From NCBI RefSeq assembly GCF_000003815.2, contig NC_049991.1:17439083-17503082 (forward strand): a DNA stretch of 64,000 bases, written 5' to 3'. Origin of the DNA: Branchiostoma floridae (taxonomy: Eukaryota > Chordata > Leptocardii > Amphioxiformes > Branchiostomatidae). The notes beneath the pieces were generated by a model, which did no database searches, had not been told where the DNA came from, and saw only the letters and a list, made by a program, of their open reading frames with translations. Position 1 is the first letter of the stretch; the number at the start of each line of letters is the position of its first letter. The position numbers were made by a program, and so were the translations under genes. Of this stretch, positions 1 through 49,680 are shown piece by piece.

Positions 1-1832
1 TTAGAAGCACTTGAAAGCTCACAAGTTTTTGGTTCTTTTCATAAGCATTTCACGGGTGACATTCACACATCGATCCTGGCTGGCGTCCCAGAAACAAAAA
101 AGAAATGTTACCGTTTCATGCTCAAGTAGGCAATGAGATTTAATATTGCTCGAAACCCCGAAACATTGGTTGCTACAGTTTAGAAGCACTTGAAAGCTCA
201 CAATTTTTGGTTCTGTCTCCATTAAACAGTTGACAATTTATTAATAAGTAACTTGAGTCAGTATGAAAAACCAATGACAAGTATGGGCACACAGCCATCT
301 CCAAGTTAGTTCTCACTTCAAAGCTCACAAGTTCCTCTTAAGTTTTTTTTTTTTTTTTACTTTTGCCTTGACATTAAGTATGTGTTCTGCATGACCGTGA
401 AACCAATTTTAGAGGCAACCATGGTCCCTGACACTCTAGATGAGGATGGGACAAGGTGAGCTGAGGTGAACCAACTATAATGCCCAGGTTGGAAACGCTG
501 CCTGCCAACCTATACTCAATGCTCCTCAAATATTATAAGTTCTAAAAGACTTTAAAGCTTGCGACTCCTTTCTTCATTTTCCTTTTCTAGACATTTTGCA
601 ATTCTAGTACACTACTTTTACATGTATGTCAAACCAGTGCACAAAACAATTGTTTCCCCTCCCATTTGCCTAAACTTAAGTTAAGGCAAATTACAACTCA
701 ACCAGAAGGCATCTTGTACAAGGAAAAGAAAAGTGATGCATAGTCTCTGCCCCAGTGCCCATAGGTAACCTTTCCACACGCATTTATCGCCAGGCTGTTT
801 TATGGCGCGGAGTTCTTATCCATCCGGAAATGGGCAATCTGAGTTTGCTGAGTTATCTGTCTGCGGAGGCATGTGCGTCATCAGTGATGCACTCGACTGT
901 GCCCTTGGACAAAAGTGGTGCTTTGATTACAAGATGTTAAATGCCGCGTGAAAGGAAAGATTTGTAACTCGGCTCATATCCTCTGAAGTTCCGCATTGAT
1001 GTAGGAAATCTGATCTCTGCCATGATGGATATCATGTTTCAGTTGTTGTTGTGTGGTCGGTCGTTAAAGGTGTTTTTTTGCAGCTCTTTACGACTGGGAT
1101 GAAGAACGCTGTGCTTTTGCCCCTCTCAGAGGAGGTTTTGATACACAATCTCATGTTTCTCACTGATGGAGTTCTTAGATAGTCAATCTACCCCATCTGT
1201 TTGGATGGATCTCACCTAAGCCCACTTTATTGATGGCAATTGAATGTGGCATCTGTATGTATGTGGGTGAAATGTTGTATGGACGTAAAAGTACTTTGAA
1301 CTTCTTATGATTTATCGTATACATTGCAGTTGCTGTTGAAGGCATTGTAAAAAGTAGCAGGAAGTGGATCAAAGTTGCAGAAAAAACATGGTGTCTACCT
1401 TTGAGCTGCAAAACTTTTCTTTTGCTATCAATTCAGGGCTTTTTTTGCCATGATAGTACAGATTGAATTAAAATCAATCATGAAAAGTTGGAAGTTTCAA
1501 AATCAAGAGTTTGCCACATAGCAATTACTCATGACAAGCAACTCGATATAATTTTGGAAATGGTCAGACGTTTGAGGTAGAATCCACTACCTTTTCGTTA
1601 GTGACACTGAAGAGATTTCGTTTTTTCATATGAATTAATATACAAAAGAGAGGTGCTATTTAGCATATGGCATTGACAATCTTTGTACACATTCTAATCA
1701 ATAAATTCACTTCTCTTTCTTACAGTGGGGAAGACTTCTACTATCCGCTAGCAATGTCGGGCTGGTTAAGGAGCATCAAGAAAATCTTTGTACATATTCT
1801 AATTAATTTTGCTTCTCTCTCCTTTCCTCCAG
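1..1832. other. ANKFN1: Sequence upstream of the first recognised exon
   Basis: This is presumably an intron of the main gene. A direct repeat (ttagaagcacttgaaagctcacaa) occurs at 1-25 and again at 180-203, and a related piece near 318. The stretch at 755-960 is richer in CpG but has no convincing exon. The last 160 bp carry a duplicate acceptor (separate entry). Confidence 0.5.
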
Positions 1833-1906
1833 TGGGGAAGACTTCTACTATCCGCTAGCGATGTCCGGCCGGTCCAGGAGCATCGAGAGCCTACACTCCC
1901 CCTCCA
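1677..1906 (+). repeat. 107-bp tandem duplication over the exon 1 acceptor
   Basis: Two units of about 107 bp each carry the end of the intron (atctttgtacatattctaat), a pyrimidine tract, an AG and the first codons GEDFYYPLAMSG. The upstream AG is at 1724-1725 and the true one at 1831-1832. Because 107 is not a multiple of three, using the upstream AG shifts the frame into a TAG at 1856-1858. Confidence 0.85.
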
Positions 1907-2095
1907 GCGAGGAGATGAAGAGAAGAAACATCCCCCCAGCGACCCCGCCCTCAGTCCCTCCTCCAACCTCCTCACGTGTCAACAAGAAGCTGTCCAACAA
2001 GCACAGGGGCTTCTCCATAGACTCAGCCATGGGGCCAAATCTAGACAAGGGGAAGAGGTCTCGGAAAACCAGCTATGGACCCATGCCATCTCCAG
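1833..2095 (+). CDS. ANKFN1: ANKFN1 exon 1 in window (residues 1-88)
   Basis: This exon follows the acceptor ctttcctccag and ends at the donor gtaag. It reads GEDFYYPLAMSGRSRSIESL and then a Ser/Pro/Arg/Lys-rich, probably disordered stretch. The open frame continues upstream of the ATG at 1861 to the acceptor, so this exon is either internal or has a Met at residue 10 as an alternative start. It leaves one base that joins exon 2 to make Val. A near copy of its acceptor and first codons lies 107 bp upstream. Confidence 0.85.
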
Positions 2096-5000
2096 GTAAG
2101 AGCATATCATGACTACTCGAGCACTCACTCTCACTCACTAACCCACACATTCACTCACTCACTCACTCACTCACTCACACAATCAATCAGTCATTCACTC
2201 ACTCAATCAGTCACTAATAGTATACTCATTCATTCACTTACTCATACCTTATCTGATGTTCCCTGAATTAGTGATATACATTTTTGTTGCATCAAAACAT
2301 CACTGCAGATAAAATCCTTATCAGACTAGGGCATCTGTGGTGGTGCATCTAAGCACGCCCCCTTATGAGTGAGTGCAGTACTGCACCTGCATTATGTAGT
2401 AGACAAAATATTGAAATGGACAAAAAAGGCACTTATCTTGCTAACTGTTGATATTTGATGCATTATCCAATATATCTATTACAGTCAAAACATTGTGAAC
2501 ATTGTAGATACTGGGTATTGAGAAGTACAAGTTTATAGCCTGGTTTGAAACTCCAGTCTGGTTTCAAGTTTATAGCCAAATTTGAAACGATATCCATCTC
2601 TTACATTCAAACTCCAATCCTATTTTAGCTACAGAGTCTCTTTCATCCCACAATCTGCAGCCATAGCTTTTGATACCACTGACTACAGGTTTTTAGTCAG
2701 ATAGAGATCGTCCCACTGAACCTTCAATATTTGATTGTTGTTATGTTTTTTTTTCACCCAGTTCTGTTTGACTCAGTGGAGCTGCAGGATTTGGATGCTG
2801 TCAGGAGCTTGCTCAACTCTCCTCACTGTCCCGACATTAACAGGTACCTGTTTGTAAGAAATATTTTTCTCCTTATAATAAGGGGTGTCCCTGTGGCTCA
2901 ACTGGTACTGATAGCAACCTTACAGTTGGCTCCTGTTTCCAATTAACGCTAGTTCACCTTTATTCGTAGGGTAACCTTAGTCCGTTCTTTTTAAGAACAA
3001 TGTATCCAGGGATTTTAAGTCGACAGATGATGGTTCCAAACGGCAATATCTTGAAAAAAGTACAATTTGAAACTACTTTCCATTGATTTAATATCCCTGG
3101 ATATCCTGTTTAGCAACACAACGGATATAGGTTAAAGGCAGATAAAGGATAAACTAACGTTACATGTAGTTAAAACTGTTTGTAACCAGACCCTGGTTCA
3201 AGTTCTTGAGTTGTGGCATCTTGGTTGGGAAAGTAAAACAGGACATACAAATTATGCAAAATTTTGACAGCTGGTATCTACAGACCTGTCCTCTGCTCTA
3301 CATTTTAATAAAGATTTATTATTAATCCATAGCTATTTGACAGCATTGTATGTTTGTCATTATATCCATAATCTATCCTCTTTGTTGGAAATGTAGGTTG
3401 TTTTCCGATGGATTTGTCTCGTGTTAAGAGAACATTCATCAACATGTTTGTGGGAAGCTTGGAAAGACAAAATATTGCATAAATGGGGCCAATCCAAACA
3501 GAAAGTAATTTTATTCTGTTGAAAAAACAATTCTGCTTTACGTTTACTAAGTCACATTTAAACCCGGTCACATTGTCTTCACTGACATGAAAGATGTTAG
3601 TGTTCTTATAGATTAGATAAGTTGAAATTATCAATGACAGTGACCTTTATTTATGAAGTGTTAGCTTTAAATTTTGTAAATTCAATTGGAAAAAGCAGAG
3701 TTACTTACTATATTCAAAATGATCAATAACAAGGACTTTTATATATGAAGAGTTAGCCTTATTTTCTTAATTCAATTGGAAAAAGCATGACTAACTATAG
3801 TCAAAATGATCAATGACAATCCTTTATTTATGAAGTGAAAAATTCAATGGGGAAAAGCAGAACTAAATAGTACTTCATCTTTATACACAGCACAAAACTG
3901 CCCCTGTATCTAACCCAAGCTAGGCGTGATTTACTATTATTCGATAATCGTAAATCGGGGATTGACGCAGTGACCATGAGTCAGCCCAAGCAATTGGACA
4001 CCCTCAACTGACTGTTGAGCAATTATCGACCGTTGGATGAAGCACCTTCATGAACAGCTCTGGCTGGCTTGGGTTGCACTGAAGTGGAGACAAAATTACA
4101 TCAAGCAATTTGTTCGAAATCATCCCGAACACAATTCCAATGACGCCTGAGGGAGAATTGCTCTTGCCGGAAACACTATCTGAGGACTCGTGGATAAACG
4201 CATTCACTTTAAATTGGTCAATTGGTTTTGAGTGGCTGTGTAATCTTCATGGCCATTGCTCATCCACTCATCACATGTGGGTTATGTTACTAAAAAAATG
4301 CATTGAAGCCCTCCTTACACTGTACATGCACAGTGTCTAGGGTGGTGCCCATCTCAGTTTTCTTTGCCCTTGGGCCACACTGCTGTGCAAGGATATCAAA
4401 AACATGTCATTATACATTGTGAACTATAGCCTGCTGGGGACTAGTTCAACAGTACTTTTCCCAAAAGGCAGAAGTCTTTTTGTTTCTGCTATCCAACCAT
4501 CTATCCAACCATCTCAGAGTTTAATCTCAATTCTTTAAACGTCCAGTCTTGTAAATTCTGCACTGCATGCAATGAGAGGATTTACACACACACATATGGG
4601 TTATGAATCATTCAAACGAGTTGTCATGTCATAAAGATAGACGCAGTTGATGACACATAGAAATGGAAGAATTTGTCTCTTATTGATCCTTGACTAATGA
4701 TCCCATTGTATAGTTGTCCTGTCATGATTTTTCTCCTTACTCTTCTTATAGAACAACTGAAAATAATCAGCACTTTTAGCACTTCATAGCTGTTGCCCTA
4801 GTTGAAAGGAACAAAGAAGAAAATAATTAACCTACATATTGTGCTAGAAATGATAAACTGGACTGACACAAGTTATGAATAAAGCATGCAGTGCCAGGCC
4901 AATAATCTGCTGACAAAGATCTCCATCGATCCTAAGAAACACAGTCAGGCAGTTGACTCATCCCAAAGTAACGTGACATGCTGTACGTCATGTAGTGGTC

Positions 5001-8000
5001 CCAAGAGATTCACGGGAATCAGATTACGGCATGACAGGTATAAAAGGGAATATTAACCAACACTCAATCATAAATCCAGTTTCTCAATCTCTGTTGGAAG
5101 TCCCTAGACCACCAACTGCAATCCGGCCCAAAATTGTGTTAGGGTATTTTGACTTATTTCCTGTCATAATCTCCTAACTTTAAAGGCTTCTAGCATTCTT
5201 GAAAAAAGACAGCCACGGTATATCTTTTAAAGAAAAGGTGAAACATCTTTGAAATTGAAACATTTTTTCTTAATTTTCTTAACACTTTGGCTCGAAATTT
5301 AAAAGACGAAACAGTTATGTACATATTGTCAATTTTTTTTTCCTTCTTCAATTGAAGGTCCAAGGGCTATATTTTAAAGCTTGGTTTACATTGTATACTT
5401 CAAGTACAACCTGAGGCTCTATACAAGGACCTGTAAATCATCATGATCAATTTTTTCCCACCCAGTATTAACGAGGAAGGCTTCACACCGCTGGACGTGG
5501 CGATGATGACCAACAATGTTCCCATGTCCAAGATGCTGATCACTGCTGGGGCTGTGGACAACCCCAGATGTAAGTACCACATTTGACTTTTGTATTGAAC
5601 CCAGGCCGTATTCATGTTTGATATTGGTGTTCCTTCTGGTCCATATTTTGCTGTGGACAACCTGAGATGTAAGTACCACATTCGACTTTTATGTCGTACC
5701 TGGACCATACTAAAGTTTAGTATCTGTGACCAATATATACTTCACGGTACGGCCTGGGACTCTATTATACTACGAATCGTAAGACTTGAACTCGCTTTTG
5801 TACGGCACTGTCAAAAATACAACTGTTCTGGAACCAAAGTGGTACAACGTCGATTCTTTTGTTTGAATTGACGAATAAAATTGTTGATGTGATATTCATT
5901 AATGTCAAGTCTTTAAAAATGCTATCTTGAGTTTCCTCGTGTTGGCATTTAATATATATTAATAGATATAAAATGCTGGGTCAGATTGCCCAATGTCATC
6001 CATAGACTTAAGTCAGTGTGGCCTGATCCATTGAACATTTTAATCATTGTAACCACGTCTACACGTCCACGACAACAGAGGATGTAGTTACCCTTGCCAT
6101 TTTTGGACAAACACACAAACAATACGTCAACCAAAATCCTTTTTTTTTTCTAATACCAAAAAGACGAACGGATTTGACGTCATCACCATGTGCCTACCTT
6201 CTTCATGCTGCTTTCCGTAAACGTGATCAAATGTCACACACGTGTATGTGGGGGGATTATCCACGTGAGCTGGTAGGAAAACATATATCCCCAGGCCTTC
6301 CCACGATTACTGGAATTGATCCAACACAGCGCAATTTGTCTAGTAAATGACTTCATCTGAGGCCAGGTACACAATTTGTTTTCCTACCAGCTCACGTGGA
6401 AAATCCCCCACGACACGTGCGTGACATTTGATCACTTCTACAAAAAGCAGCATGAAGAAGGTAGGCATGTGGAGTGATGACGTCAAATCCGTTCGTCTTT
6501 TTGGCATTAAAAAAGAAATTTTAAAGGATTTTCTTGACGTCATGCATTTGATACCAGAACCTAATACAGCACAACAAGCCAGCACTTGACACGGTGTTTG
6601 ATATTCAAGACCTCAGCTTGATATTTAGGTCCTCTTGCAACATTATGAGTGTTTTTTTTTTCTTCAGCAATTGACACTCCCTTATAGAACTAGAGATCTT
6701 TATTCTGTGCTGCTAGTTCCATTTCCTTCTGAATCATTGGTTTAAACCCAAGTTCCCATTGTTCCCATTCCTCTAGATTTTGTCAAGCCAGGAAGACTAG
6801 CTAAGGGTCTCTTTTATGGAAGTGATGCAATTTTGTTAACATTTACTGTAATTATGGAAGAAAATATTCTTATTTATTCATCAAAGCACTGAATATGTTT
6901 GATCTTGGTGTGTCCTTACATTTTTTTCATCAAATTGAAATGTAATACAGTTCGACTTAGATGATTTGTCAAATTGTTTGTTGTCAGCCTATCAGAATTG
7001 TTGATTTAATTTTATGTACATGTACTATACTTCCCAACACTTAGTCTATCAAATTTACAGATTTCGATTTTTGAAAATTGGTCAGGGTAGCAAGAGTTTA
7101 CATTTTGAAGAGCTATAACTTTCGTTGATAGTCACATAATATACATGTAACAGGGCAAGAAATACCACCTGCATAATTTTATGCAGGTTAGTGCAGGTAA
7201 AATTGGAGCTGTGCAGGTATTTCTGATACATGTCTACCTGCACCTAACCTGCACTGGTCCATGTACTGGGTTTCATACATTTAATGATTGTCCTATTATG
7301 TACTAGGTGTACATGGATTGTTATAAGCTAACTGTAACATTGACTTCTACCACTTATAAAGTATAAAAGAAAAAATAGCAATGGTACCTGAACATTTTTA
7401 GTATGACTCATAGGTCCTAAATTCAAAGTGGTGCAGGTAAAATTTGTCTGGTGCAGATAATTTTCAATGCCACCTGCATCAGTGCAGGTATGCAGAAAAA
7501 AGTGTTTTGAGCCCTGATGTAGCAGCTTTATGTCATACCTGTGACGCGAAAACGTTCGATACGGGTGTTCCGGACCTGGCCGTACACTTCCGTATCGCAC
7601 AGGTTCGAAAGGCGCATCACACAGGCTCCATTCGAGTAAATCGAACCATTTCGAGCGGGCTGAATACGACTGGGTTAGCAATTCGCATACCTGATTCGGA
7701 CGTTGGAACATTGCTGTTGCAACACTTTTGGTTCGAGGGCACCAAGTTTGTTCAACTTCTGGCGCATTTCGCATCAAAACATGGGTTTTCTCAGGTGGGT
7801 AAGACATACTATAAAATACAACACGGTGTATTCTATATAGATTGAGCTTTAATCTCAACCTTTCCTCTCTCCCCAGTCACGTGTCCGGAGGCGCGCGGTC
7901 TGCACCTAGCGACGTTGGTGAGCGAGGCAGAGAGAAAGGTGGACAACATCATGCAGCAGGTGGTGAACATGGGTCCACCCACCAGTGCACAGCAGCAAAA

Positions 8001-41000: not shown

Positions 41001-44000
41001 GTCAGAATTTTAAACAAATTATTGATTTTTTCCTCTTGCATAATTGTTTATGGTGAGATGCTTCTTTTTCATTTTTTGATAGTAGTCCGTAGCGTAGAGT
41101 GGGCTGGATAAATTTGTTGTTTCTATTCGGCCTCCGGTTTTTCAAGACTCCTGCCTATCACTACCATCTTCATAACATGTGTTAAGATGCAGGATGATTG
41201 GCAGCTGTAAATAATTGATTAATCACTGAACTGCAGTACCATGTAGAGCTTTATAGACTACATTATTACTAATTGACTCTGACTGGTCTGCTATTGTTCA
41301 CTTCATCATGTTTAACAGAAAAAAATGCAAAATGCAAGCATGTAAAATGTCACGTAGATCCCATCAAGGAAATCACAAATTGCTCTCTATGGTGCTTTTA
41401 TTACCTGATTGATATCTGCTTCCTGCGCTACGTGCATGACCTTGTGTTGACTGTCTACTTCCTGTGACCATGACCTTACGTTGACTGTCTGCTTCCCGTG
41501 CTTCGTGCGTGACCTTGTTTTGACCTTGCTCCCTGCAGCAGAGGGGTGTACCTGGCCACCATCTTGTACCACGGAGACCACATCCTGGTGACGGGCGAGG
41601 ACAACATTCCCGTCGTCGAGGTGGACGACACGTTTCCCAGCATGCTCAACCTGGATCTCCACTGGTTCATGAAGGTAAGTTTTTGTCTTATTTTTATTTC
41701 CATTGGACTGTCTAAAACTTGTCTTAGCCTCCTTTGCATATCAATTCGTAGTGTATTCATTCAAGCTGTAGCAGATGATATCCTGAAAATGTTAAGAACT
41801 GTACCTTCTTTTTTGTTGGGTTGTGTAGTGTAAGGGTGTTTGGCTCCGAAGCAAAAGGGTTCCAATACTGTCATGCTACCAATCTTTTGCCCCTTGGAAA
41901 GACATTTTACGCCACTTTCCTCACTCCACCCGGGTGTAAAAGTGGGTTCATGACTTTGGTTGTGGAACTAAAAGTGAAGTGGGAAGAGAGCTCCGCTTCC
42001 CAATACTGTATCTTAGACAAAGTAGATTATTAACACCCACTGCCCCTACAGTTTCAAAAAGGCTGTAGGATTACCTTTACATTTTTTAACTACCTCTTAA
42101 TTAGCATGACTCATTGCTATTTGGCGGAAATCTTAAGCATTTTCTAGCCTTTTTTTCTTGTAGTTAAAGTATGTTCACTACAAACATCTGTTTACAATTT
42201 TGGTAGAAGGAGAGGGTTGGGCTCTGCCTCCCACAGTGACACGGAAGGCTATTGGATTACCTTAAGTGTACCTTTTTTACTACCTGTAAATGATCATGAC
42301 TCATCTATGTACCTGTTGCAGGTGTCCTGCACCTGGTCAGACCTGAGACAGCTGCGCCAGGACCTGGACAGGTGCGCCTCGGCCTCGTCTGCATCCTTCA
42401 GAAGTCGGCTCCTTCAGGCCGCGATACAACTCCAGGTGAGGCTCAAATCCCTAATGTTGCAAGATTAGGCTGCACCATATTGCGTTGTTTTTATTATTGG
42501 ACGTTTTGCAGTTATAAAAAGCACAGCAAAGTTTCAGCATAGCAGAATTTCAGAAAGGTAACCTGCAAGCTGTGTGCGAAGTTTTTGATCAGATCATTTA
42601 CCAGGCCGTTATACCCAGGTGATGCTCAAATCGCTTAAGTTGCAAGGAAACACTTAAATGGCTGCACTGTATTGTGTTTTGTTCTTGGAAGAGTTGACAA
42701 TGAAAAAAAGTTGAATGAAAGCAATAGATGGAAGCCTGGGTACAGAAATAATTAAGGTAACCTGCAAAGTATTTGATTAGATATAGCTCATTCAGTTTCG
42801 GATTGTCAGATAATCAAATTCAGAATTTTATGTAGCTTTTTACCTTGTTCTGTCTTTTCATATTTGCTTCAGACTAATTTAAAGTGAATTGAATTAGGAA
42901 AAACCATCTCTATCATGAGTTGAACATCACTGAATCTTTAACTCCTGAAATTTTTTTTACTCGACCTAGATAAACTGTTTCGTAAACCATCTTTTGTAAG
43001 TGACATATGCTCCTAGGTCACTCGACATGTCACGGCTTTAAAGTCTCTACAAAAGCGTCACAATAGAGATTTTGTAGTAGAAAATATGCATCAAAGTCGT
43101 TATATAAGTGAATCAGGCGAGGTCACTTGACATGTCACGGCTTTAAAGTCTTAACAAAAACGTCAGACAAGAGATTTCGAAGTAGAAAGTCTACATCAAA
43201 GTCGTTATATAAGTGACATCTGGCCTTCAGCTGGCTTCACTGATCAAACATTCAAATGTCACTGAACTGTAGAACTTCCGTCGCTTCCGTCAGAAGTTAT
43301 TGTTTTCACTGCTCCCATTTGCATCTACATAAGCCCTTCTGGGTCATGTTGTCCTTGCCATAAAACAGCATTACCTTACGTAAACAACACTCCCCGAATG
43401 TTTCCTGTTGTCATGAGACTGTTTTTCTGCTTACGAAACATTTGACCTAATTTAAAAAGGGCAGAAATGGCACAAAATACCTCCAGAGAATTGTCTTAAG
43501 TTTTCCATGCTCCTGGCTTGCAATACGATATGGATTGGATCTTATATAAGGGAGCAAAACTCTTTGAAATAAAATGTCATTTAGGTCGTACAAAATCTAT
43601 GGCTTATTTGACATATTCAACCTTTTTTCCTTATCTAACATAGCAACAAACTTCATAGTATATTCAATTTGTTTTGTTGGATTGTATTTCCATCAGTGGA
43701 GGTCATTGTATCCACACTTTGACGAAAAAACAAGTGGTGGATATGCTTTATGTAACAAGAGTGAACAGGAAGAAAAGGTCATTTTACTTTCGAAAAAACA
43801 GGAAGGGCTTACCTGTACTAACAGTGGATATGATATGCATGACGGCTTCCTGTTGTTTCTGAGTTCCCAGCTTTGCCCTTTGCATTACATGTATTAGATC
43901 AGAGGAAGGTTTTGTGTTTGCACAAATGAATTACATTCGCCCACATACCTGTAGGTTTTACATATTGAATGATTCCATTTGATACTGGAAGTAGAAGTTA

Positions 44001-47000
44001 GATTGTGCCTTAGATTCTGGTTAAAGTCAAATCAAAAGATTTTGTATCTGAAATGGTGATGTTTGTTTAAGAAAGGGTAATTTTTCACTTTGTCCGCAGC
44101 CAGTTTGTAAGCTCCATTAATTTAGCATTTGTCTGACAGGTAACAAACATCTACCACTTTGCAAAATAGTGTGTTTGAGTGATCTCTAGTGCAGCATCCC
44201 CACACATGCACGGTTTATATATACTGGAGTGTGTTTTACTCGGATAAATCACATCAGAGATCTGTTTAGGCGAGCATATTTCATGGTACCAGGTATGATT
44301 TGTGACCTGGTAAGATCATTGTTTAACTTTCTAGATGTTAAAACCTGTCTATGAATTGCCCTAAACTTGTTCTCTCTGTTGTTATTTTCCCAGAACTCCC
44401 TGGGAGTGCAGGACCTGGGTTATGTGTACCACACGGCCATCAAGGACAGTCACGGGTCCATCGTCATCCCCACTGTCAGACAAGTCAAGGTCAGTCAACT
44501 CACTCAAGTTTTTATTTCTTTCTACCAATGTCTCCAGTTTCAAGTTGCACTTCCAGCTAACAATTGCACACCTGTCTATCTCACTGTCTTTTAGATCTCT
44601 AATGTGGTATCAAAGAGCTTCCTTCAACAATTACATGTGATGTTGGTCCTTTCTATTTAAAACTTGTGCTTGTAAGTATTTTGTTTGATAGTTGCTTGCT
44701 TATGGACAGTGACTTGATGATCAAAGGTCCACCTCATTTTTGAGATTTGAAATTTGGAGAATATTGTTGAAACGTCCTGCCAGCAATGATGGAGGCATTG
44801 CTGTGTTTCAAAGCTAGTTACTGGATCCTCATATTTTTTTGTCCTCATGACAACTCATAGTTTTTGATATGCTATGACAACTCTGATTTGCAATGACAAC
44901 TAATTTATCATCTTAACTTCTACAGGACCCAAAGTACGTCCAGTCATCTTCTCTAAAGTGGGTCCCGATCAGTCGACTCCAGCGACGGAGAATGTCTGCG
45001 GCAGAAGACCCCAGCGCGTTGGAGAGACTTCTCAACAGAATCCCTGTAAGTCACCTCACAACTATTCTTTCTTATTCATTAAACCTATACCCATTGATTG
45101 ATGGCAAAACAGCTAGTTCATAAAATTTAACATCACATTTATCAAGATGCCATTTATTGGTCACTATGGTGTATTAGTGGCAAATATTGAAGGATTTTAA
45201 TCAAAATATGCCAGCCTGAGGTCAATTACTTCCCTTTTTTACCTCTTACCGTGCCAGGAACTAAGCTCTTCCATATGTGTATCTGATGTTGAATACTTTG
45301 GTTTTCTCAATAATCTAGCAACCAAATGTGTCTTACTTTTCTTCCAGCAGATAGAATGCACTACAACCACTTAAAAGTTTCCCAAGAAACTAACCAAGCA
45401 TTTCTCATTGCCTTTCCACAGGAGATAATGCACTACAACCACAACAGCACCAAGCCGCCGCCGCAGGGCCTGTACATCGGCTACCTGAAGCTGTGCAGCT
45501 CCATGGACTCCATCGGGGTGCTGGTGCCCAAGGGGAACCCCAACATGCTGCCCCACTGCCGCATCAGGGACAACCCCAACGTCTCCAGCGAGGAGTGGGA
45601 ATGGGTGCGCAGGCTGTGCAGCGGGGAGGTGAGATGATGGCCTTTCACCTTAATGACTGACCTATGAACTTTGCCTCCCGATTACTCACATCATGCATCA
45701 TCGATGTTTACTGATAGGTTGTAGCATTACCGTAACTTAGCACCTTAGATACTCCCATGCTTTTGAGGCACGTTGGGCAGTCGTCGACCTTACACAGTTC
45801 TGAGATTCTCTTTTGGCTCTATACCAGGAGCTTCCGGAGGTTATAGGATAACTCTTTCTTGTTCCTTTCTACAATCACAATTGTGACAGTCATAGACTTC
45901 GAGTTAGGAATTTGTCTTACACATGAAATTTGCAAGGAATGATGACCAAATGTAGATGAAAAAAGAGATTTTTTTTTAAAGTTTTTTAATTTTGAATTTG
46001 TAACTCTTTCCCCAGGTGACAGAGGAAGACCCCAAACCCAGCCAGGCACAGTGCATATTTAGAGACCAGCTCATCCGGGCCTCCAAACGGCTGCTCAACT
46101 CTTTAGATGTATCTGAAGAGGATGCTCTACAACACAGGTAAGAGTTCTAGTCCCCATGTGATTTGGGATTTTGTTCAGAAGCTTCATAATGCTTGCTGTT
46201 AAGTGGAAGATTATTATGGAGGATTATTATGAATGGATGGAGGGAGAAAGTCATGTTTATCCATGTAACCAGCACAACCGAATGATGTTGATGATGATAA
46301 CCCATAGATTTTTAACCTTAAAAAGCTATTCAAAGTACTCTAGTCCTATCCATGTTGTTGTTTTATGTATCCTTTTCTAAAACATTGAAAAACTGGCGTG
46401 TACTATTTAGTAGCGAATAGATTGTAACCTGTGACTCCTTCTGTCCTCAGATTGTTCTGTACGGAGGTCCTAGAGCTTGACAACAACGTTTCGATGCTGC
46501 TGCTTGTCCCACCTGTGGAAGACGTGTGCTGCGCACCTGGGCAGACACATCACCTGTTCCAGCAGGACTCCTTCCTCACACTCCCTCTACAGGTGTTCGA
46601 ACTAGGTGAGTTACCTGAGACTCAAGTCAGGATGCTCTCCAGTAGCAATTTCAGAACTTACATTTACTCTGGGTTCAAAATACTTTTATGGCCAGGTTTA
46701 TTTTCCCAGTGGCAACCTCAGCCAAAAGCTAGGTTGTCCATAAACATGTCAGGTTGCCCTAATTTCGAGCTCCGCAAGTGAATTTTATTATAATATAATT
46801 TTTATGTCGAGCCCTGATGATGTTGGAACATAAATTTTGAGCCTTGGTGCAAAGGTTCCTTCCACAGTCATCATTTCTATAATTTCTGTTTTTTAGGTAA
46901 ATGTATAAGAGGTGTTGTAGGGACCCTAGTAATTACATAGCAGACTTTAACACATCTTTTGTTTTCGTCTTTTCTCCAGTTCATATGACAACATTCCAGC

Positions 47001-49197
47001 CTCACTTCTTCGACCAGTACGCTACCCTGTCGTCCCAACTGGAGGTGGAGAACTTCCTGGTCCAGCACCAGTGCAGGGAGGCCTTCTCAGACTCGGAACT
47101 GTCCGGGGCCAAACACAGGCAGCTCAGAATAGCCAACTTCCAGCAGGTACTTTATAGATTTATACCCCAACCTATTGATCTATCTATTGGTTGAGATGCC
47201 CACGTTTTTGACAGGCAAATACAAATAGAAAACCCTAGTCACAAAGACTGGAAAACCTTCATAGGATTTGATATCATTGTGTCAATACCTTTAACTATGT
47301 ACCAATTTATGTGCTTGCTGCTACTGGTTCTTGTTAAAGGTCTGGGAAGCACATGTAAAAAATTAGGGTAGAAAAGGATTATGATTTTTACATCTGGATG
47401 AGATGACATTACATCACTTCCTCGAGCAGAATACACAAGTGGCTAAAAAGAAATGTTTGCAAATGAAAATGTAGAAGCAATATACATCAGGTTGACAATC
47501 ACTATTAGTAACTAACTGTTTCCCTTGATATCATCCAAACAGGACTTGGAAGACATCTGGCGAGGAGCGCGGTGGATCATGGACGTGCTGCAGTATGCTC
47601 GGGACAGAACGGCAGATGGAGGCCTCCTGCTGGAGAGAATATACCAGTCAGCAACACCGTCCCTGCCAAAAGTGCCCACTCAGCTGTCCCTGCCCAAAAC
47701 CAGACGAACATCAGGTAATTGTTACTTTTACTTATTTATGTTGCAATTCAACCTATGAATTTGATTATACCACTGCTGGTGTCCCTGACATAGGGGTAGG
47801 CAGCAGTCGGATAGTCTTTGTACCGCGCTTCCCTGCTTTTGTCCAGTGGGTCCACCATTTACCACACAGAAAGTGCATAGCATTAGTCAAACATTTACCT
47901 GAAAGTCCCCTTCCGTATGCAAATTTGTTTGTTTTAAGGACCACGTGTAATTCAATTGAAAAGCAATCTTGAAATATATTGTACCATTTATATCTACATG
48001 TAGAATGTCAAACACACGAAAGACCTCCGGCCAGCATTTTGCTTGAGGTCTTCTCCTCTGTTAATCTTGATCTAAATATCTCTATTTAATGTAATTCTTA
48101 GAATTGCATATTGACTTGAAATGTTTTGTTCATTGGCTGTTATCTAAATTGCACCCTGCATTTCTTCTCGCTCACAGATTCCGACGACAACTTTGCCAGG
48201 AGAAGCCCCGAGGTCTGCTCCTCCACAAGTGACGAGGAGGGGATGTCGAAGGGCACGTCACCGATCCCCACCCACATCCCCTTCTCCCCACCCCTGGAGT
48301 CTGGCCTGGTGCTTGTCAGGGAGGCGTCGCCGTCTCTCATCCGCGTCCGATCGCGCAGCATCTCACCCGTCAACAGACACAAGGACACCTCCCCGCCCCA
48401 GGGGACCTCCGAGAGCGGCCACGAGCCCACCAAGACGGAGATTCTGTCGGGGTCGACCAAGGCTGGCATCCTGAGAGTCTACCCGGACTACCACACGGGG
48501 CTGGCCAAGGGAACCAGTGTTAAGGTATGACATGTCCACATAGTCTCTATTTATTTGCAATATTAATATCATTGTCATTGTCATTGTCATTAATAAGAGA
48601 TTCTAGAGCCATTTATACACACCTTGGTGTATTGACTGTTAGAATAGAAAAATTCATCCTAAAGACTAGAAGAAGATTCCCTGTTCTTGATTTAGTTTAG
48701 TCCTAAGAAAACCAATATTAGTACCACGTCTGTGTCAACAGAGCAGCTTTCTGCCTGTAAATCAAAATTATATCTGACTGGTTCATGTGATCCTTGCTTA
48801 GTGAACCTTGCATGGAAGTCAGCTTACACTTCCATGCATTCTTTTATAAGAGTAAAAGAAAGTACCAGCATGTTATACTTATGAAATGTTTCCTTTCTAT
48901 CTGTAGCTCCATGTCACCACCAAGACGACTTCCCGCGAGGTCATCGACCTGGTGGTGCGACAGATCAACAAGGCGGGGCGCAGCCGCGACCCCGTGTCCC
49001 CCCTGTACCCAGACGACCTCCTCCACAACTTCTTCCTGGTGGCCATCATCGCAGGCAGGGAGAGACAGCTCCCAGACACGTACCAGCCGCTACAGCTGCA
49101 GAATCCATGGGCCAAGGGCAAGCTGCTGGTGCGCCTAAGGGACCAGGCTACGGCAGCGCTAGCTATGCTACACGAAACACAGTCTACATCTGTCTAG
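1833..49197 (+). CDS. ANKFN1: ANKFN1 / wide awake homologue, 21 coding exons (5' end incomplete)
   Basis: This is a multi-exon gene encoding an ankyrin, fibronectin type III and Ras-association domain protein. Joining 21 GT-AG exons (listed separately) gives 1032 codons and a stop with every phase matching. Residues are numbered from the first full codon at 1834. An ankyrin region lies at about 93-147 (TPLDVA at 122-127), followed by EQQLKSWEWRFRLLKRMK (193-210), one FN3 domain at about 219-312 (W258, Y292, GWGP 303-306), a basic stretch near 368-391, the family-specific middle region (391-820), a Ser/Pro-rich linker (821-915) and a Ras-association-like domain (917-1020). The C-terminus is Thr-Ser-Val. 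In flies the homologue (wide awake, also banderuola) acts in clock-controlled sleep and in neural cell polarity; mouse Ankfn1 affects rhythm and vestibular behaviour. The molecular activity here is inferred as scaffolding. The first exon seen starts with an acceptor, so upstream exons are probably missing. Confidence 0.93.
2115..2235. repeat. CACT-rich microsatellite
   Basis: A (CACT)n tract with variants (cactcactcactcact, aatcagtc) begins 20 bases after the exon 1 donor. It is intronic. Confidence 0.9.
2762..2843 (+). CDS. ANKFN1: ANKFN1 exon 2, start of ankyrin region
   Basis: The acceptor is tttttttcacccag and the donor gtacct. The exon encodes VLFDSVELQDLDAVRSLL and on to PDIN, which is the helix pair and loop of an ankyrin-like repeat as found in ANKFN1. 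It starts in phase 1 and leaves two bases (ag), which join the first base of exon 3 as Ser. Confidence 0.92.
2844..5465. other. ANKFN1: Intron 2
   Basis: This is non-coding. It has a tRNA-like SINE head fragment near 2880-2950 (box A-like tggctcaactgg), a threefold tandem of about 80 bp around 3630-3860 (gatcaatgacaa, aattcaattggaaaaagca) and a SINE body fragment at 4338-4392. Nothing else is recognised. Confidence 0.5.
5466..5569 (+). CDS. ANKFN1: ANKFN1 exon 3, ankyrin repeat
   Basis: The acceptor is ttttttcccacccag and the donor gtaagt. The exon encodes INEEGFTPLDVAMMTNN and then PMSKMLITAGAVDNPR, with the ankyrin signature G-x-TPLDVA and a second helix ending in LITAGA. It leaves one base (t) completed as Phe by exon 4. 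The 3' end of the exon with its donor is duplicated 99 bp downstream. Confidence 0.95.
5551..5691 (+). repeat. 99-bp duplication over the exon 3 donor
   Basis: The end of exon 3 with its donor (gctgtggacaaccccagatg and taagtaccacatt) is repeated at 5650 with few changes. The second copy has an intact gtaagt at 5669. If that donor were used, the message would reach an in-frame TGA at 5584-5586. Confidence 0.85.
6121..6545. mobile_element. Foldback element with terminal inverted repeats of about 150 bp
   Basis: The arms at about 6122-6285 and 6378-6543 are inverted copies, including gacgaacggatttgacgtca on the left and its complement on the right, and the inner end ccacgtgagctggtaggaaa. The central spacer is about 90 bp. 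There is no transposase frame. Each arm carries a TGACGTCA (6175 and 6478) and CACGTG sites. I find no clear target duplication, so the superfamily is open. Confidence 0.8.
7152..7512. repeat. Dispersed repeat with caggta/tgcagg motifs, copy 1
   Basis: The stretch aaataccacctgcat ... ggtgcaggtaatttt ... caggtatgcagaaaaa occurs here and again, in the same orientation, at 13878-14120. It is rich in palindromic gcaggt/acctgc words. I see no coding capacity and no target duplication. Confidence 0.7.
7877..8001 (+). CDS. ANKFN1: ANKFN1 exon 4 (residues 150-191)
   Basis: The acceptor is cctctctccccag and the donor gtgcga. The exon encodes FTCPEARGLHLATLVSEAER and then a helical segment ending in SAQQQK. 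It looks like a capping ankyrin-type helix followed by a possible coiled coil that links to the FN3 domain. It ends in phase 0. Confidence 0.93.
8509..8587 (+). CDS. ANKFN1: ANKFN1 exon 5, linker before FN3
   Basis: The acceptor is ctctaactcacag and the donor gtaggt. The exon encodes EQEQQLKSWEWRFRLLKRMK and AGFEHA, a helical linker very typical of ANKFN1 proteins. One leftover base (a) joins ga of exon 6 to make Arg. The next constitutive exon is almost 10 kb away. Confidence 0.94.
9262..9381 (-). mobile_element. tRNA-derived SINE remnant
   Basis: The words ggcgcccatctctgcttctg, ccttggaccacaca and cactctacctacttggccattgcac match the body and head of the better SINE at 24826-25090 in the same orientation. 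It is diverged and truncated. Confidence 0.55.
9720..10100. repeat. Degenerate tandem array with ttccagaaatt words
   Basis: About five diverged units of roughly 70 bp share gaatgttccagaaatttggt and nearby gaacttgatttctgact. It is intronic with no coding potential. Confidence 0.6.
11570..12850. repeat. Three tandem units of about 440-490 bp
   Basis: The word ggagcttttccttcttagag occurs at 11762, 12204 and 12697. It is followed in each unit by gtcaggatta, a gtaaagaccttgatgaagtg-like stretch and aaatctgcccaccc. Units 1 and 3 also share gacgcgtatgtccgttcttc. Unit 2 lacks that part. Confidence 0.8.
13180..13720. repeat. Three tandem units of about 200 bp
   Basis: The word aaacatacaatactttt or a close form occurs at 13205, 13416 and 13610, followed by gccgtggcctcacagaagga. 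An ORF of 76 codons within it (13506-13736) is an accident of the repeat. Confidence 0.8.
13878..14120. repeat. Dispersed repeat with caggta/tgcagg motifs, copy 2
   Basis: This matches the copy at 7152-7512 over most of its length (aaataccacctgcat, ctggtgcaggtaattttcaa). It has an internal deletion relative to that copy. Confidence 0.7.
14400..14852 (+). promoter_or_regulatory. ANKFN1: Putative promoter region of alternative exon 1b
   Basis: The region before the exon 1b ATG contains two ATGCAAATGAG octamer motifs 81 bp apart (14515 and 14596), a CRE-like cgacgtca at 14503-14510, an E-box CACGTG near 14432 and a TAATGATTG homeodomain-like site near 14697. I see no TATA box. POU, CREB and bHLH use is inferred from motif matches only. 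Confidence 0.3.
14853..15003 (+). CDS. ANKFN1: Probable alternative first exon 1b of ANKFN1
   Basis: An ATG with A at -3 opens a 50-codon frame, MRQRSLSFRWKGRPKLGGGA and on to MRELVQNRTL, with a stop TAG at 14817-14819 upstream in frame. It ends at a strong donor, a|gtaagt, with one leftover base a. That is the same phase and base as the end of exon 5, so splicing to exon 6 at 18415 gives Arg and continues directly into the FN3 domain. The region is richer in CpG than the surrounding intron. The predicted form has 50 new residues plus residues 218-1032 and lacks the ankyrin region. I do not recognise the peptide. Chance agreement of phase is one in three, so this is a supported inference, not proof. 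Confidence 0.5.
16420..16790. repeat. Three tandem units of about 150 bp
   Basis: Each unit carries a form of gcactttacagctctgtaca, then cctatcacattgctgtgtgt and accttggac. It is intronic and diverged. Confidence 0.7.
17440..17720 (+). mobile_element. tRNA-derived SINE
   Basis: A tRNA-like head has a box A-like tggcgcaatttgaaagg and a box B-like agtttgaatcc, followed by a body with gaaaggcactttcctcactt, gaaaatgagtacc and a tail aaagaacccccaacac. The same head and body pattern occurs at 41815-42040. It is not a tRNA gene, since the cloverleaf is degenerate. Confidence 0.7.
17748..18480 (+). repeat. Four tandem copies of the exon 6 acceptor and exon start
   Basis: Units starting with caatcctttcacaaacg, then a pyrimidine-rich intron end, an AG and gacccccgggcgcccccac occur with exon-like starts at 17841, 18086, 18249 and 18415 (spacings 245, 163 and 166 bp). 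Only the last continues as a full exon with a donor. The first three have AGs ctag, ccag and caag and reach stops when read in the gene's frame. Confidence 0.9.
18415..18528 (+). CDS. ANKFN1: ANKFN1 exon 6, first third of the FN3 domain
   Basis: The exon encodes RPPGAPTAVRLGVSSSTSLV and then VSFQEPDTINGAMATRYK, the A to C strands of a fibronectin type III domain. The donor is gtttgc. The acceptor is the weak form cccaag. Three upstream partial copies with acceptors (ending at 17840, 18085 and 18248) lack the second half of the exon; this fourth copy is the only complete one and the only one that keeps the frame. Confidence 0.94.
19177..19288. mobile_element. 112-bp foldback MITE with 9-bp target duplication
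   Basis: The ends are tagcctggtatatccagccg and its near complement cggctggatactaggcta, and almost the whole element is a hairpin (agctcccgagtctctt and its complement). The flanks are acagggaag at 19168-19176 and 19289-19297, an exact 9-bp duplication. A 9-bp duplication fits Mutator-like elements. Confidence 0.85.
20312..20376. mobile_element. 65-bp foldback MITE with 9-bp target duplication
   Basis: The ends are tagcctgagtatcatcc and ggatggtacccaggcta, with a central palindrome taccggggctaccccggta. The flanks are atattttca at 20303-20311 and 20377-20385, an exact 9-bp duplication. It has the same TAGCCTG ends as the element at 19177. Confidence 0.85.
20521..21027. mobile_element. Inverted-repeat element between 67-bp direct repeats
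   Basis: A 67-bp sequence (gtttaatgctgcgaggcagt to caatatt) lies at 20521-20587 and again at 20961-21027. Between them is a 373-bp segment with inverted ends, gcctgggtaccatccaggta on the left (20589) and the complement form ending taccggattgtacccaggc (20958). The ends match the TAGCCTG foldback family. The direct repeats are far too long for a target duplication. Confidence 0.7.
21031..21269. mobile_element. MITE with ccccctttccacta ends
   Basis: The inverted ends are ccccctttccactaga at 21035 and tcctagtggaaaggggg ending at 21265. The inner part (agacaacaaaacacacaaag, cgatttgtttctttt) resembles the inside of the element at 54210-54437. There is no coding capacity. Confidence 0.65.
21404..22560. 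repeat. Tandem array of 246-bp units with paired ATGCAAAT octamers
   Basis: After a (GTCT)n tract, units start with aacgtgttgacggatcgtca at 21733, 21979 and 22225 (exact 246-bp spacing), and a decayed unit starts near 22500. Each unit has attatgcaaat facing atttgcataat, giving inverted pairs of the POU octamer. The unit also contains ggactttcaaacttgtcaca. Confidence 0.85.
22837..23028 (-). pseudogene. LINE ORF2 C-terminal fragment
   Basis: The minus-strand frame reads MLLITFYFICLELVHNPCQE and ends with SRSNRHSQSFIPRALALLND, which resembles the extreme C-terminus of non-LTR retrotransposon ORF2 proteins (R-x-N-R ... S-F-I-P-R-A-x-x-x-L-N). Only this piece remains. The clade is not determined. 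Confidence 0.55.
23205..23810. repeat. Fivefold tandem array of about 100-150 bp units
   Basis: Units share tatagaaaaagtacacaaag, gacatgataatacct and gatcaaacaagaacaaggc. Five units start near 23213, 23363, 23470, 23590 and 23715, with the third shortened. Confidence 0.8.
24826..25090 (-). mobile_element. tRNA-derived SINE, minus strand, next to exon 7
   Basis: On the minus strand the head begins ggtgcaatggccgagtgggt (box A) and has gagttcgattcccggg (box B), a good tRNA-like promoter. The body on the plus strand reads ggcgcccatctccacttcgg. The element ends only about 85 bp before exon 7. Fragments of the same body occur at 4338-4392 and 9262-9381. Confidence 0.75.
25175..25272 (+). CDS. ANKFN1: ANKFN1 exon 7, middle of the FN3 domain
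   Basis: The acceptor is tgttgttcctatag and the donor gtgaga. The exon encodes VEWSCYENFVPLAGEFVLTE and LKSLSYKIMGLSK, covering FN3 strands C to E, with the conserved V-E-W. The exon ends in phase 0 and is followed by a 14.3-kb intron. Confidence 0.95.
26870..27235. repeat. Tandem duplication of about 190 bp
   Basis: Two copies share gcaaattctcttcccatt, ctttttgagccgcc, acaaacttcgaaacccgaca and cgttacggcatttccaagaa. ORFs on both strands here follow the repeat and have no recognisable product. Confidence 0.8.
29143..29190 (+). CDS. Weak candidate alternative first exon (16 codons)
   Basis: An ATG, four codons after an in-frame TGA (29131-29133), opens MPAFGLMRRAESFPRQ and reaches the donor cag|gtattt in phase 0. 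Phase 0 would join exon 8 at 39538 in frame. The peptide is short, unrecognised and has no clear promoter, so this is a low-confidence candidate only. Confidence 0.2.
29210..29480. repeat. Tandem duplication of about 135 bp
   Basis: Two copies share ttttcattgtttttggacta, ataatttacggtaattgttc-like words, gcaccactagatgtac and gccatttaatttgaaatgca. A third, partial copy is near 29925-29960. Confidence 0.8.
33960..37880. repeat. Higher-order satellite of five dimeric units with ten CRE sites
   Basis: Two related monomers alternate: A with cttccgtgacgtcacatcga (CRE at 34044, 34877, 35828, 36717, 37587) and B with ctactgtgacgtcacatcga (34263, 35103, 36049, 36922, 37790). A-to-B distances are 203-226 bp and the dimer period is 833-951 bp. 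Every one of the ten has an intact TGACGTCA, usually followed by catcgat. The units also share tgtgcgcacatggattctca, and some end with a short (TGAAA/ATAAA)n tract. Confidence 0.9.
36318..36362. repeat. AAATG/AAATA microsatellite in the CRE array
   Basis: The tract gaaatgaaataaaataaaat and a like tract at 37195-37248 sit at the same place in successive units of the satellite, which shows that they were copied with it. Confidence 0.85.
39076..39297 (+). promoter_or_regulatory. ANKFN1: Putative TATA promoter of alternative exon 1c
   Basis: Reading towards exon 8 there is an ATTGG (reverse CCAAT) at 39076-39080, a CCAATCA at 39108-39114, an E-box CACGTGG at 39165-39171, CRE half-sites near 39241 and 39255, and TATAAAA at 39266-39272. 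Start of transcription would be near 39291-39297. The spacing is that of a classical core promoter, 106 to 112 bp before the ATG at 39403. Confidence 0.4.
39403..39537 (+). CDS. ANKFN1: Probable alternative first exon 1c, contiguous with exon 8
   Basis: The ATG at 39403 follows directly on an in-frame TAG (39400-39402) and opens 45 codons, starting MYGIATSSDSNQPDKSSTRF, that run without a stop through the exon 8 acceptor into GNKYFVRVSA. No splice is needed. The second half (KKACRKVSRFFGQMLMK) is basic and amphipathic. A TATAAAA box lies at 39266, with CCAAT and E-box motifs further up. The product would have 45 new residues plus residues 289-1032, missing the ankyrin region and most of the FN3 domain. 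The alternative is that this is only open intron before an ordinary acceptor, whose pyrimidine tract (ccatgccttgtctacag) is short. Confidence 0.45.
39538..39628 (+). CDS. ANKFN1: ANKFN1 exon 8, end of the FN3 domain
   Basis: The acceptor is ccttgtctacag and the donor gtaagt. The exon encodes GNKYFVRVSACNVKGWGPTK and ATIPPAGVPS, which are FN3 strands F and G with the hallmark Y-x-x-x-V-x-A-x-N and G-W-G-P. The frame is also open upstream of the acceptor back to an ATG at 39403, which makes a probable alternative 5' exon. Confidence 0.95.
40560..40670 (+). CDS. ANKFN1: ANKFN1 exon 9
   Basis: The acceptor is gtaatgccttgcag and the donor gtaagt. The exon encodes NWRELEVSESQDRHRLKKLD and then DLKTQIKNAKMLEADTI, a charged helix that follows the FN3 domain in ANKFN1 proteins. 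It leaves one base (t) completed as Ser by exon 10. Confidence 0.93.
40895..41000 (+). CDS. ANKFN1: ANKFN1 exon 10, basic segment
   Basis: The acceptor is gaccttttgcag and the donor gtcaga. The exon encodes STHSSPKGSPPHMRRSMKKG and LKNFFQSVKFHRNLK. The basic, aromatic stretch could bind membrane or act as a nuclear signal; that is a guess. It leaves two bases (ag), completed as Ser by exon 11. Confidence 0.92.
41430..41538. repeat. Three short tandem units before the exon 11 acceptor
   Basis: Units of about 35 bp starting tgaccttgtgttgactgtct occur near 41437, 41471 and 41510. The last runs into the pyrimidine tract and the NAGNAG acceptor of exon 11. Confidence 0.6.
41539..41674 (+). CDS. 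ANKFN1: ANKFN1 exon 11
   Basis: The exon encodes SRGVYLATILYHGDHILVTG, then EDNIPVVEVDDTFPSMLNLD and LHWFMK, the start of the ANKFN1-specific region. The acceptor reads gcagcag (NAGNAG), so use of the second AG would drop one residue. The donor is gtaagt and the exon ends in phase 0. Confidence 0.95.
41815..42040 (+). mobile_element. tRNA-derived SINE in intron 11
   Basis: The head gtgtttggctccgaagcaaa and the body ggaaagacattttacgccac, ctttcctcactccacccggg follow the same pattern as the SINE at 17440-17720. It is diverged. Confidence 0.6.
42322..42435 (+). CDS. ANKFN1: ANKFN1 exon 12
   Basis: The acceptor is gtacctgttgcag and the donor gtgagg. The exon encodes VSCTWSDLRQLRQDLDRCAS and ASSASFRSRLLQAAIQLQ, an amphipathic helical part of the family-specific region. 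It is a 38-codon, phase 0-0 exon. Its donor and the start of intron 12 are duplicated 183 bp downstream. Confidence 0.94.
42430..42800 (+). repeat. 183-bp tandem duplication over the exon 12 donor
   Basis: The donor and intron start ccaggtgaggctcaaatc recurs as cccaggtgatgctcaaatc with GT at 42619, followed in both by tgcaag, ggctgcac, attgtgtt-like and aaggtaacctgcaa words. Use of the second donor would read into a TAG at 42466-42468. Confidence 0.75.
42436..44393. other. ANKFN1: Intron 12
   Basis: Besides the duplicated donor region it contains a clear 105-bp tandem duplication at 43015-43222. The ORF at 43574-43897 is not supported as coding. Confidence 0.6.
43015..43222. repeat. 105-bp tandem duplication
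   Basis: Two units starting aggtcactcgacatgtcacg (43015 and 43120) are nearly identical through gcatcaaagtcgttatataa. A short related piece precedes the first unit. Confidence 0.85.
44394..44489 (+). CDS. ANKFN1: ANKFN1 exon 13
   Basis: The acceptor is gttattttcccag and the donor gtcagt. The exon encodes NSLGVQDLGYVYHTAIKDSH and GSIVIPTVRQVK. It is a phase 0-0 exon of 32 codons in the conserved middle region. Confidence 0.94.
44926..45045 (+). CDS. ANKFN1: ANKFN1 exon 14
   Basis: The acceptor is ttaacttctacag and the donor gtaagt. The exon encodes DPKYVQSSSLKWVPISRLQR, then RRMSAAEDPSALERLLNRIP. RRRMS fits a basophilic kinase site (inferred). It is a phase 0-0 exon of 40 codons. Confidence 0.94.
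45341..45445 (+). repeat. 71-bp duplication over the exon 15 acceptor
   Basis: The stretch atgcactacaaccac of exon 15 (45428-45442) is copied at 45357-45371, and the copy is preceded by a good pyrimidine tract and AGs (cttccagcag). Splicing there would give a TAA at 45372-45374. Confidence 0.75.
45422..45628 (+). CDS. ANKFN1: ANKFN1 exon 15
   Basis: The acceptor is cctttccacag and the donor gtgaga. The exon encodes EIMHYNHNSTKPPPQGLYIG, then YLKLCSSMDSIGVLVPKGNP and a conserved tract ending in WEWVRRLCSGE. The GLYIGYLKLCSS motif is typical of the ANKFN1 family. The first codons, with a pseudo-acceptor, are duplicated 71 bp upstream. GC content is clearly higher than in the introns. Confidence 0.96.
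46016..46137 (+). CDS. ANKFN1: ANKFN1 exon 16
   Basis: The acceptor is ctctttccccag and the donor gtaaga. The exon encodes VTEEDPKPSQAQCIFRDQLI and then RASKRLLNSLDVSEEDALQH, a helical segment. It leaves two bases (ag), completed as Arg by exon 17. Confidence 0.93.
46451..46605 (+). CDS. ANKFN1: ANKFN1 exon 17
   Basis: The acceptor is cttctgtcctcag and the donor gtgagt. The exon encodes RLFCTEVLELDNNVSMLLLV and PPVEDVCCAPGQTHHLFQQD, ending near LQVFEL. It leaves one base (g), completed as Val by exon 18. Confidence 0.93.
46980..47146 (+). CDS. ANKFN1: ANKFN1 exon 18
   Basis: The acceptor is cgtcttttctccag and the donor gtactt. The exon encodes VHMTTFQPHFFDQYATLSSQ, then LEVENFLVQHQCREAFSDSE and a tail ending in RIANFQQ. 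It ends in phase 0. Confidence 0.94.
47543..47714 (+). CDS. ANKFN1: ANKFN1 exon 19
   Basis: The acceptor is atatcatccaaacag and the donor gtaatt. The exon encodes DLEDIWRGARWIMDVLQYAR, then DRTADGGLLLERIYQSATPS and a Pro-rich tail ending in KTRRTS. One base (g) joins exon 20 as Asp. Confidence 0.94.
48178..48524 (+). CDS. ANKFN1: ANKFN1 exon 20, Ser/Pro-rich linker and start of RA domain
   Basis: The acceptor is tctcgctcacag and the donor gtatga. This is the longest exon (347 nt) and is GC-rich. It encodes a low-complexity Ser/Pro/Arg linker with several possible proline-directed and basophilic phosphorylation sites (for example RRTSDSDD at the exon 19/20 join and RSRSISP), then GILRVYPDYHTGLAKGTSVK, the first strands of the Ras-association-like domain. 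Confidence 0.94.
48555..48590. repeat. TCATTG microsatellite after exon 20
   Basis: The unit tcattg is repeated about five times, 30 bases into intron 20. Confidence 0.85.
48907..49197 (+). CDS. ANKFN1: ANKFN1 exon 21, RA domain and stop
   Basis: The acceptor is cctttctatctgtag. The exon encodes LHVTTKTTSREVIDLVVRQI, a central stretch with DDLLHNFFLVAIIAGRERQL and a last strand WAKGKLLVRLRDQ, fitting the ubiquitin-like fold of a Ras-association domain. Whether it binds a small GTPase cannot be told. The tail is LAMLHETQSTSV and then TAG at 49195-49197. The last 41 bases or so are the first unit of a minisatellite that fills the start of the 3' UTR. Confidence 0.95.
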   Translation, partial: LHVTTKTTSREVIDLVVRQINKAGRSRDPVSPLYPDDLLHNFFLVAIIAGRERQLPDTYQPLQLQNPWAKGKLLVRLRDQATAALAMLHETQSTSV

Positions 49198-49680
49198 TGC
49201 TAGCCATGCTACACGAAACACAGTTTACATCTGTCTAGCGCTAGTCATGCTACATGAAACACAGTCTACATCTGTCTAGTGCTAGTCATGCTACACGAAA
49301 CACAGTCCACATCTGTCTAGCGCTAGCTATGCTACACGAAACACAGTCCACATCTGTCTAGCGCTAGCTATGCTACACGAAACACAGTCCACATCTGTCT
49401 AGCGCTAGCTATGCTACACGAAACACAGTCCACATCTGTCTAGCGCTAGCTATGCTACACGAAACACAGTCCACATCTGTCTAGCGCTAGCCATGCAGCA
49501 CGAAACACAGTCTACATCTGTCTAGTGTTAGCCATGCTTCACGAAACACAGTCTACATCTGTCTAGCGCTAGTCATGCTACACGAAACACAGTCTACATC
49601 TGTCTAGCGCTAGTCATGCTACACAAAACACAGTCTACAATGATTCTGTCTAGCGCTAGCCATGCAGCATGAAACACAGT
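49158..49680 (+). repeat. 41-bp minisatellite made from the end of the coding region
   Basis: About 13 units of 41 bp (gctagctatgctacacgaaa, cacagtctacatctgtcta) follow each other. The first unit is the coding end LAMLHETQSTSV and its TAG. Units 5 to 8 are almost identical, so the array has expanded or homogenised recently. Confidence 0.95.

Follow-up and report, generated by a model that had tools for sequence, protein, structure and literature searches.

Tandem duplications across splice sites in an amphioxus ANKFN1-like gene: a further case of mirages, with rates from 20 loci

Does a gene in which several splice sites are copied in tandem stand out from the rest of its genome, and are the extra sites kept for a reason? 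The question arises from a 64,000-nucleotide stretch of the Branchiostoma floridae genome (contig NC_049991.1, positions 17,439,083 to 17,503,082 of the forward strand; hereafter the window). An initial annotation of the window had reported tandem duplications that straddle an exon edge, and copy its splice site, at exons 1, 3, 6, 12 and 15 of a single gene. Two readings were offered: either this genome abounds in short tandem duplications, or decoy sites are kept.

Such structures have already been described in amphioxus. Mirages, tandem duplications that span an exon-intron boundary, occur in Adh3, BflGb6, BflGb9 and TnC (PMC3087553, citing a 2002 study of Adh3), and similar repeats lie over splice sites in lancelet PGBD5 (PMC3902484); both reports describe regular splicing as seemingly undisturbed. 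Repeat units of 10-72 bp in Adh3 and 150-160 bp in the globins are reported (PMC3087553), and PGBD5 carries imperfect repeats of 2 x 60 bp and 3 x 108 bp on or overlapping its splice sites (PMC3902484). Tandem repeats are counted across the old amphioxus assembly in PMC2632668, in its accessible text without relation to exon edges, and among the literature matches listed for the phenomenon we found no genome-wide mirage rate. The gene considered here is a further case. What is added is a set of rates, which estimate the frequency of mirages beyond hand-picked genes and against a matched intron background.

The gene occupies positions 1833..49197 on the forward strand and, as modelled, has 21 exons (Table 1). 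Its predicted protein marks it as an ANKFN1/Nmf9/wide-awake-like gene. A Pfam search places Ank_4, fn3 and RA in that order along the protein, Ank_4 (6.3e-5) and RA (6.5e-6) above the cut-off and fn3 (5.7e-5, 23.7 bits, from a query without exon 7) below its cut-off of 25, and exon 15 encodes GLYIGYLK. Nmf9/ANKFN1 proteins have ANK, then FN3, then, in most invertebrates, RA, with a GLYLGYLK signature (PMC4488434); the same domain order and a close match to the signature are found in the window gene. The gene model is a prediction from DNA alone. The prediction called 24 exons, of which six were removed as decoy or doubtful; exon 7 was later restored, giving 19 final exons from this source. Exons 5 and 9 were picked by eye from a loose gene-finder run (329 exons, most of them false), a choice guided in part by known ANKFN1 sequence and the initial annotation's count of 21, so that the exon numbering agrees with that annotation partly by construction.

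Table 1. Predicted exons, mirages and repeats of the window gene. Positions are those of the window. The last column gives the score of the edge-crossing match, with the null maximum in brackets.
Feature	Position	Strand	Detail	Score (null maximum)
Exons 1-7	1833-2095, 2762-2843, 5466-5569, 7877-8001, 8484-8587, 18415-18528, 25175-25272	+	predicted	
Exons 8-14	39538-39628, 40560-40670, 40895-41000, 41539-41674, 42322-42435, 44394-44489, 44926-45045	+	predicted	
Exons 15-21	45422-45628, 46016-46137, 46451-46605, 46980-47146, 47543-47714, 48178-48524, 48907-49197	+	predicted	
Exon 1 acceptor mirage	1678..1888	+	about 107 bp x 2; true site before 1833, decoy before 1726	83 (24)
Exon 3 donor mirage	5551..5718 (ends approximate)	+	exon end and donor copied 99 bp downstream; true site after 5569, decoy after 5668	67 (21)
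Exon 6 acceptor mirage	17799..18477	+	four copies of acceptor and exon head; decoys before 17841, 18086 and 18249, true site before 18415; nearest spacing 166 bp	140 (24)
Repeat 5' of exon 11 acceptor	41435..41500	+	34 bp x 1.9	
Exon 12 donor mirage	42419..42701 (ends approximate)	+	true site after 42435, decoy after 42618, 183 bp downstream	49 (21)
Exon 15 acceptor mirage	45320..45442	+	true site before 45422, decoy before 45348, 74 bp upstream	38 (23)
Exon 21 minisatellite	49155..49680	+	41 bp x 12.7; begins within coding end	

Exon edges were tested by Smith-Waterman alignment of the 40 bp on either side of an edge to flanks of 800 bp on either side, with up to 60 random stretches as the null. 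A first pass covered 35 edges, and the six edges of exons 5, 7 and 9, none of which is straddled by this test, were examined separately for a total of 41. At five of the 41, a local tandem duplication includes the splice site, and the match scores well above the null (Table 1). They are the acceptors of exons 1, 6 and 15 and the donors of exons 3 and 12, which confirms the three acceptors, one of them in four copies, and the two donors that had been claimed. All decoys in the window retain their AG or GT. True and decoy donors of exon 3 both read GAT/gtaagt; at exon 12 the true site is CAG/gtgagg and the decoy, CAG/gtgatg, is weaker. Two further repeats had been reported. The tandem tract at exon 11 is present, but it does not cross the edge, its match spanning -39 to -14, whereas the exon 21 minisatellite is present and begins in the coding end. 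Its first unit holds the stop codon, and later units lie 3' of it; in 49155-49197, about the final 14 codons and the stop fall within that first 41-bp unit. It seems that the C-terminus of the window gene either arose from repeat sequence or became repeat itself.

In unit length the five duplications resemble published mirages, the nearest-copy spacings being 74, 99, 107, 166 and 183 bp, of which the last two are slightly above the reported range. As in the Adh3 and globin mirages, the copies span an acceptor or a donor, comprise one to several extra units, and in many instances carry splice dinucleotides. Unlike those, they lie in another gene, affect five borders of that one gene, and were identified in assembled DNA. 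PGBD5, a different gene again, likewise has tandem repeats over its splice sites, and there read data support the repeats. Intron gain by tandem duplication, an idea cited in PMC3087553 and exemplified by potato RdRp (PMC4974935), also involves an internal duplication carrying splice signals. The window gene differs in that no new intron is evident, the copies apparently lying within existing introns.

The high heterozygosity of amphioxus invites the suspicion that such copies arose artificially, when two haplotypes were merged or the sequence was mis-assembled; against this, region 45250-45700 around exon 15 matches one place of the assembly (513 Mb in 431 contigs searched), namely itself, and spacing, copy number and identity differ from case to case. 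A globin mirage was indeed misassembled in a genome draft and was rebuilt from trace data (PMC3087553), yet the tandem copies of PGBD5 held up in re-examined Sanger and new Illumina data (PMC3902484). We consider it most improbable that the copies are artefacts. Around exon 6, the matches of region 18000-18530 are the region itself, its neighbouring copy, and at least 43 short dispersed pieces of the one assembly. About 50 bp within the exon 6 units (18140-18190 and 18303-18354) recur with 83-98% identity at those 43 or more other genomic places, a count that is a lower bound with 40 of 255 candidates scored; a dispersed repeat fragment therefore sits inside the amplified unit. Further along, in the intron before exon 8, an open frame with MLMMTSVRTW recurs in blocks spaced about 0.8-0.95 kb from one another, and 34364-37149 is a large tandem duplication.

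Whether exon edges are struck more often than other positions was examined in 20 loci including the window gene, 14 of the 20 coming from two protein families. Dynein heavy chain loci were found by a PF12774 search of the genome, and nine of about 22 were used, in contig order; a PF00118 search provided chaperonin loci, of which five of nine multi-hit loci were picked for compactness. In both families introns were placed between neighbouring Pfam matches (40 placed, 11 pairs not placeable), pairs of matches more than 16 profile positions apart being left out, and one straddled acceptor, in L030, rests on an intron whose placement leaves a length misfit of 17 residues. Five more genes were predicted in 20 random 10-kb loci and then confirmed by Pfam. 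Five of the 22 multi-exon predictions, chosen as protein-like in appearance, went to Pfam, and all five matched (GATase_2, HCR, Peptidase_M14, ABC_tran with Fer4_RLI, and BLTP3A/B). Repeated stretches in two of these loci, L010 and L027, had already been noticed before the five were chosen. One decoy exon of L010 and ten L027 exons outside the Pfam match were left out before the count, and most of the edges so omitted are mirage-positive. A position was scored as straddled at an alignment score of 36 in the test used for the window edges, a threshold that none of 733 cross-locus controls reached. A Pfam globin search, run as a positive control for the BflGb6 mirage, gave nine matches and, at that sensitivity, no tandem partial copies.

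Local copies straddle 14 of 213 exon edges (6.6%), 746 of 5649 intron positions in the same genes (13.2%) and 14 of 523 exon-interior positions (2.7%). The frequency of short tandem duplications that had been supposed is thereby borne out, and 305 of 3866 random genomic positions are likewise straddled, 48 of these matches being of low complexity. Because intron positions are autocorrelated, the ratio of edges to introns, observed at 0.50, was bootstrapped over loci, with a median of 0.52 and an interval of 0.27-0.98. The factor of two is nevertheless insecure, as it depends on gene-model choices: with the left-out gene models kept, 31 of 234 edges are straddled (13.2%), which equals the intron rate, and the five random-locus genes with all predicted edges kept give 21 of 113. 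Without the window gene, 9 of 172 edges are straddled, against 262 of 2753 intron positions, and the interval for the ratio, 0.21-1.20, includes 1; the dynein and chaperonin loci contribute 5 of 80 edges and 129 of 861 intron positions. Under either choice of gene models, exon edges are not enriched over introns. The initial annotation had itself named a genome-wide lack of enrichment at exon edges as a result that would refute it, and over these 20 loci, as distinct from the whole genome, the count finds no enrichment.

The order of the three classes was also followed at four combinations of score and distance (36 or 50 at up to 800 bp, and 36 or 60 at up to 300 bp). Straddled edges numbered 14, 11, 14 and 9 of 213, intron positions 376, 304, 308 and 221 of 2850, and exon-interior positions 14, 14, 15 and 15 of 523, so that exon interiors rank below edges, and edges below introns, at every setting. 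The contrast between edges and exon interiors is clear at the looser score and weak at the stricter ones (Fisher p 0.02, 0.11, 0.03 and 0.36, with positions taken as independent).

Five straddled edges in one gene might suggest that exon edges are hot spots at which tandem duplications arise by mutation, for example at pyrimidine tracts. Intron positions, however, are struck at least as often as edges, and donors, which have no pyrimidine tract, are struck at a rate close to that of acceptors (6 of 105 and 8 of 108). Selection against edge duplications could mask a hot spot; even so, we think it very unlikely that edges are especially prone to duplicate. Nor is the window gene a clear outlier, its 5 of 41 comparing with 9 of 172 at the other loci (Fisher p 0.15; a binomial at the rate of those loci gives a probability of 0.06 for at least five). 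The remark that nearly all borders lack such duplications thus holds per border but fails as a contrast, given the rate within introns. Introns of the window gene are rich in local copies (484 of 2896 positions, 16.7%), and in classical tandem repeats the window is no richer than random loci (TRF, period of at least 20: 2118 of 64000 bases in the window versus 10602 of 200000).

Similar structures were seen in dynein heavy chain loci L029, L030 and L037 and in chaperonin locus L042, and the GATase_2 gene of L010 has a four-copy donor mirage. In this glutamine-amidotransferase gene, on the reverse strand at 3844-4290, four near-identical copies of an exon end and its donor follow one another. 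The gene finder read one copy as an extra exon, and automatic annotation may therefore misread such loci.

What the decoys look like bears on whether they are kept. With one decoy analysed per straddled edge (n=14), the AG or GT is present in all 14, and the splice score is lower than that of the true site in seven, equal to one decimal in seven and higher in none; scores were taken from a generic, hand-entered splice matrix. From true site to aligned copy the distance is 74-350 bp, with two to several copies per case. The extra copy lies on the intron side in 13 of the 14, as a working gene requires; the one exception is a borderline match (score 36, L027 9047). Pooled identity between copies is 92.1% in the exonic and 92.6% in the intronic part, with 6 gap events in 585 exonic and 33 in 1258 intronic aligned bases. 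It had been suggested that duplications are seen best where exons conserve the sequence. The exonic part is indeed the better preserved in five of five window mirages, but in only four of nine elsewhere, and the pooled identities do not separate the two parts.

Use of any of the seven window decoys (one each at exons 1, 3, 12 and 15, and three at exon 6) leads to a stop, as had been stated; at exon 1 it falls at about 1856. These seven stops, with the intact dinucleotides of all 14 decoys, are what could be expected of poison splicing, in which selection keeps decoys as regulators whose early stops lower transcript level. The stops are weak evidence, however, and were so described from the outset, because read-through into an intron often meets a stop by chance, and at about 92% identity most dinucleotides would survive without selection. 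Edges that show no enrichment over introns, and decoys that equal or fall below the true site and never exceed it, argue further against such a role. Identity and scores give no sign of decoy maintenance, the claim that decoy sites are kept is not supported, and we attach very little probability to poison splicing. The observations fit copies of different ages that decay without much selection on the decoy.

By far the most probable explanation, in our judgement, is frequent and mostly neutral tandem duplication that is purged within exons and tolerated wherever splicing can remove the additional copy. Mirages would then be minisatellite-like tandem duplications that chance to span an exon-intron boundary, in a genome where short local duplication, presumably by slippage or unequal exchange, is very frequent throughout. 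A duplication landing inside an exon would usually damage the protein and be purged, and one within an intron would be free. At an edge, the gene would work if the spliceosome took the acceptor adjoining the intact exon, which is the downstream one, or the donor at the intact exon's end, which is the upstream one; the extra copies would leave as intron, and the decoys would be free to decay. By analogy with Adh3 and the globins, normal splicing is presumably kept in the window gene, and the copies are probably neutral. Acceptor mirages are the more interesting half, because an intact upstream acceptor must be passed over. Exon definition, or enhancers in the intact exon, are candidate ways by which the downstream acceptor might be chosen.

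The suspected anomaly of the locus is thereby removed, since the gene does not clearly stand apart from others and its decoys need no function. If some 5-7% of splice borders carry mirages genome-wide, an extrapolation from 20 loci, amphioxus would be well suited to tests of how exons are defined and introns gained, because true and decoy sites of nearly the same sequence would be in direct competition in great numbers. More tentatively, and with rather less than even confidence, we suggest that in amphioxus about one exon edge in 15 to 20 bears a duplicated splice site as part of a standing load, which includes intact upstream decoy acceptors that must be passed over. Such a load would amount to a natural genome-scale experiment on site choice and would keep supplying new introns and exons.

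A few other repeats came to light in the course of the analysis. In the window, 57472-57571 is a run of 100 N, either a gap or withheld sequence, adjoining a CA-rich simple repeat. In a dynein heavy chain gene, G000:C11:20521813-20522184 holds three tandem matches to the same 27-28 PF12774 positions, about 145 bp apart, and is probably another mirage. On the reverse strand of L009, a predicted zinc-finger-like protein contains a long run of VPRAKSHANITCKVPYL repeats, a putative minisatellite that is open in frame.
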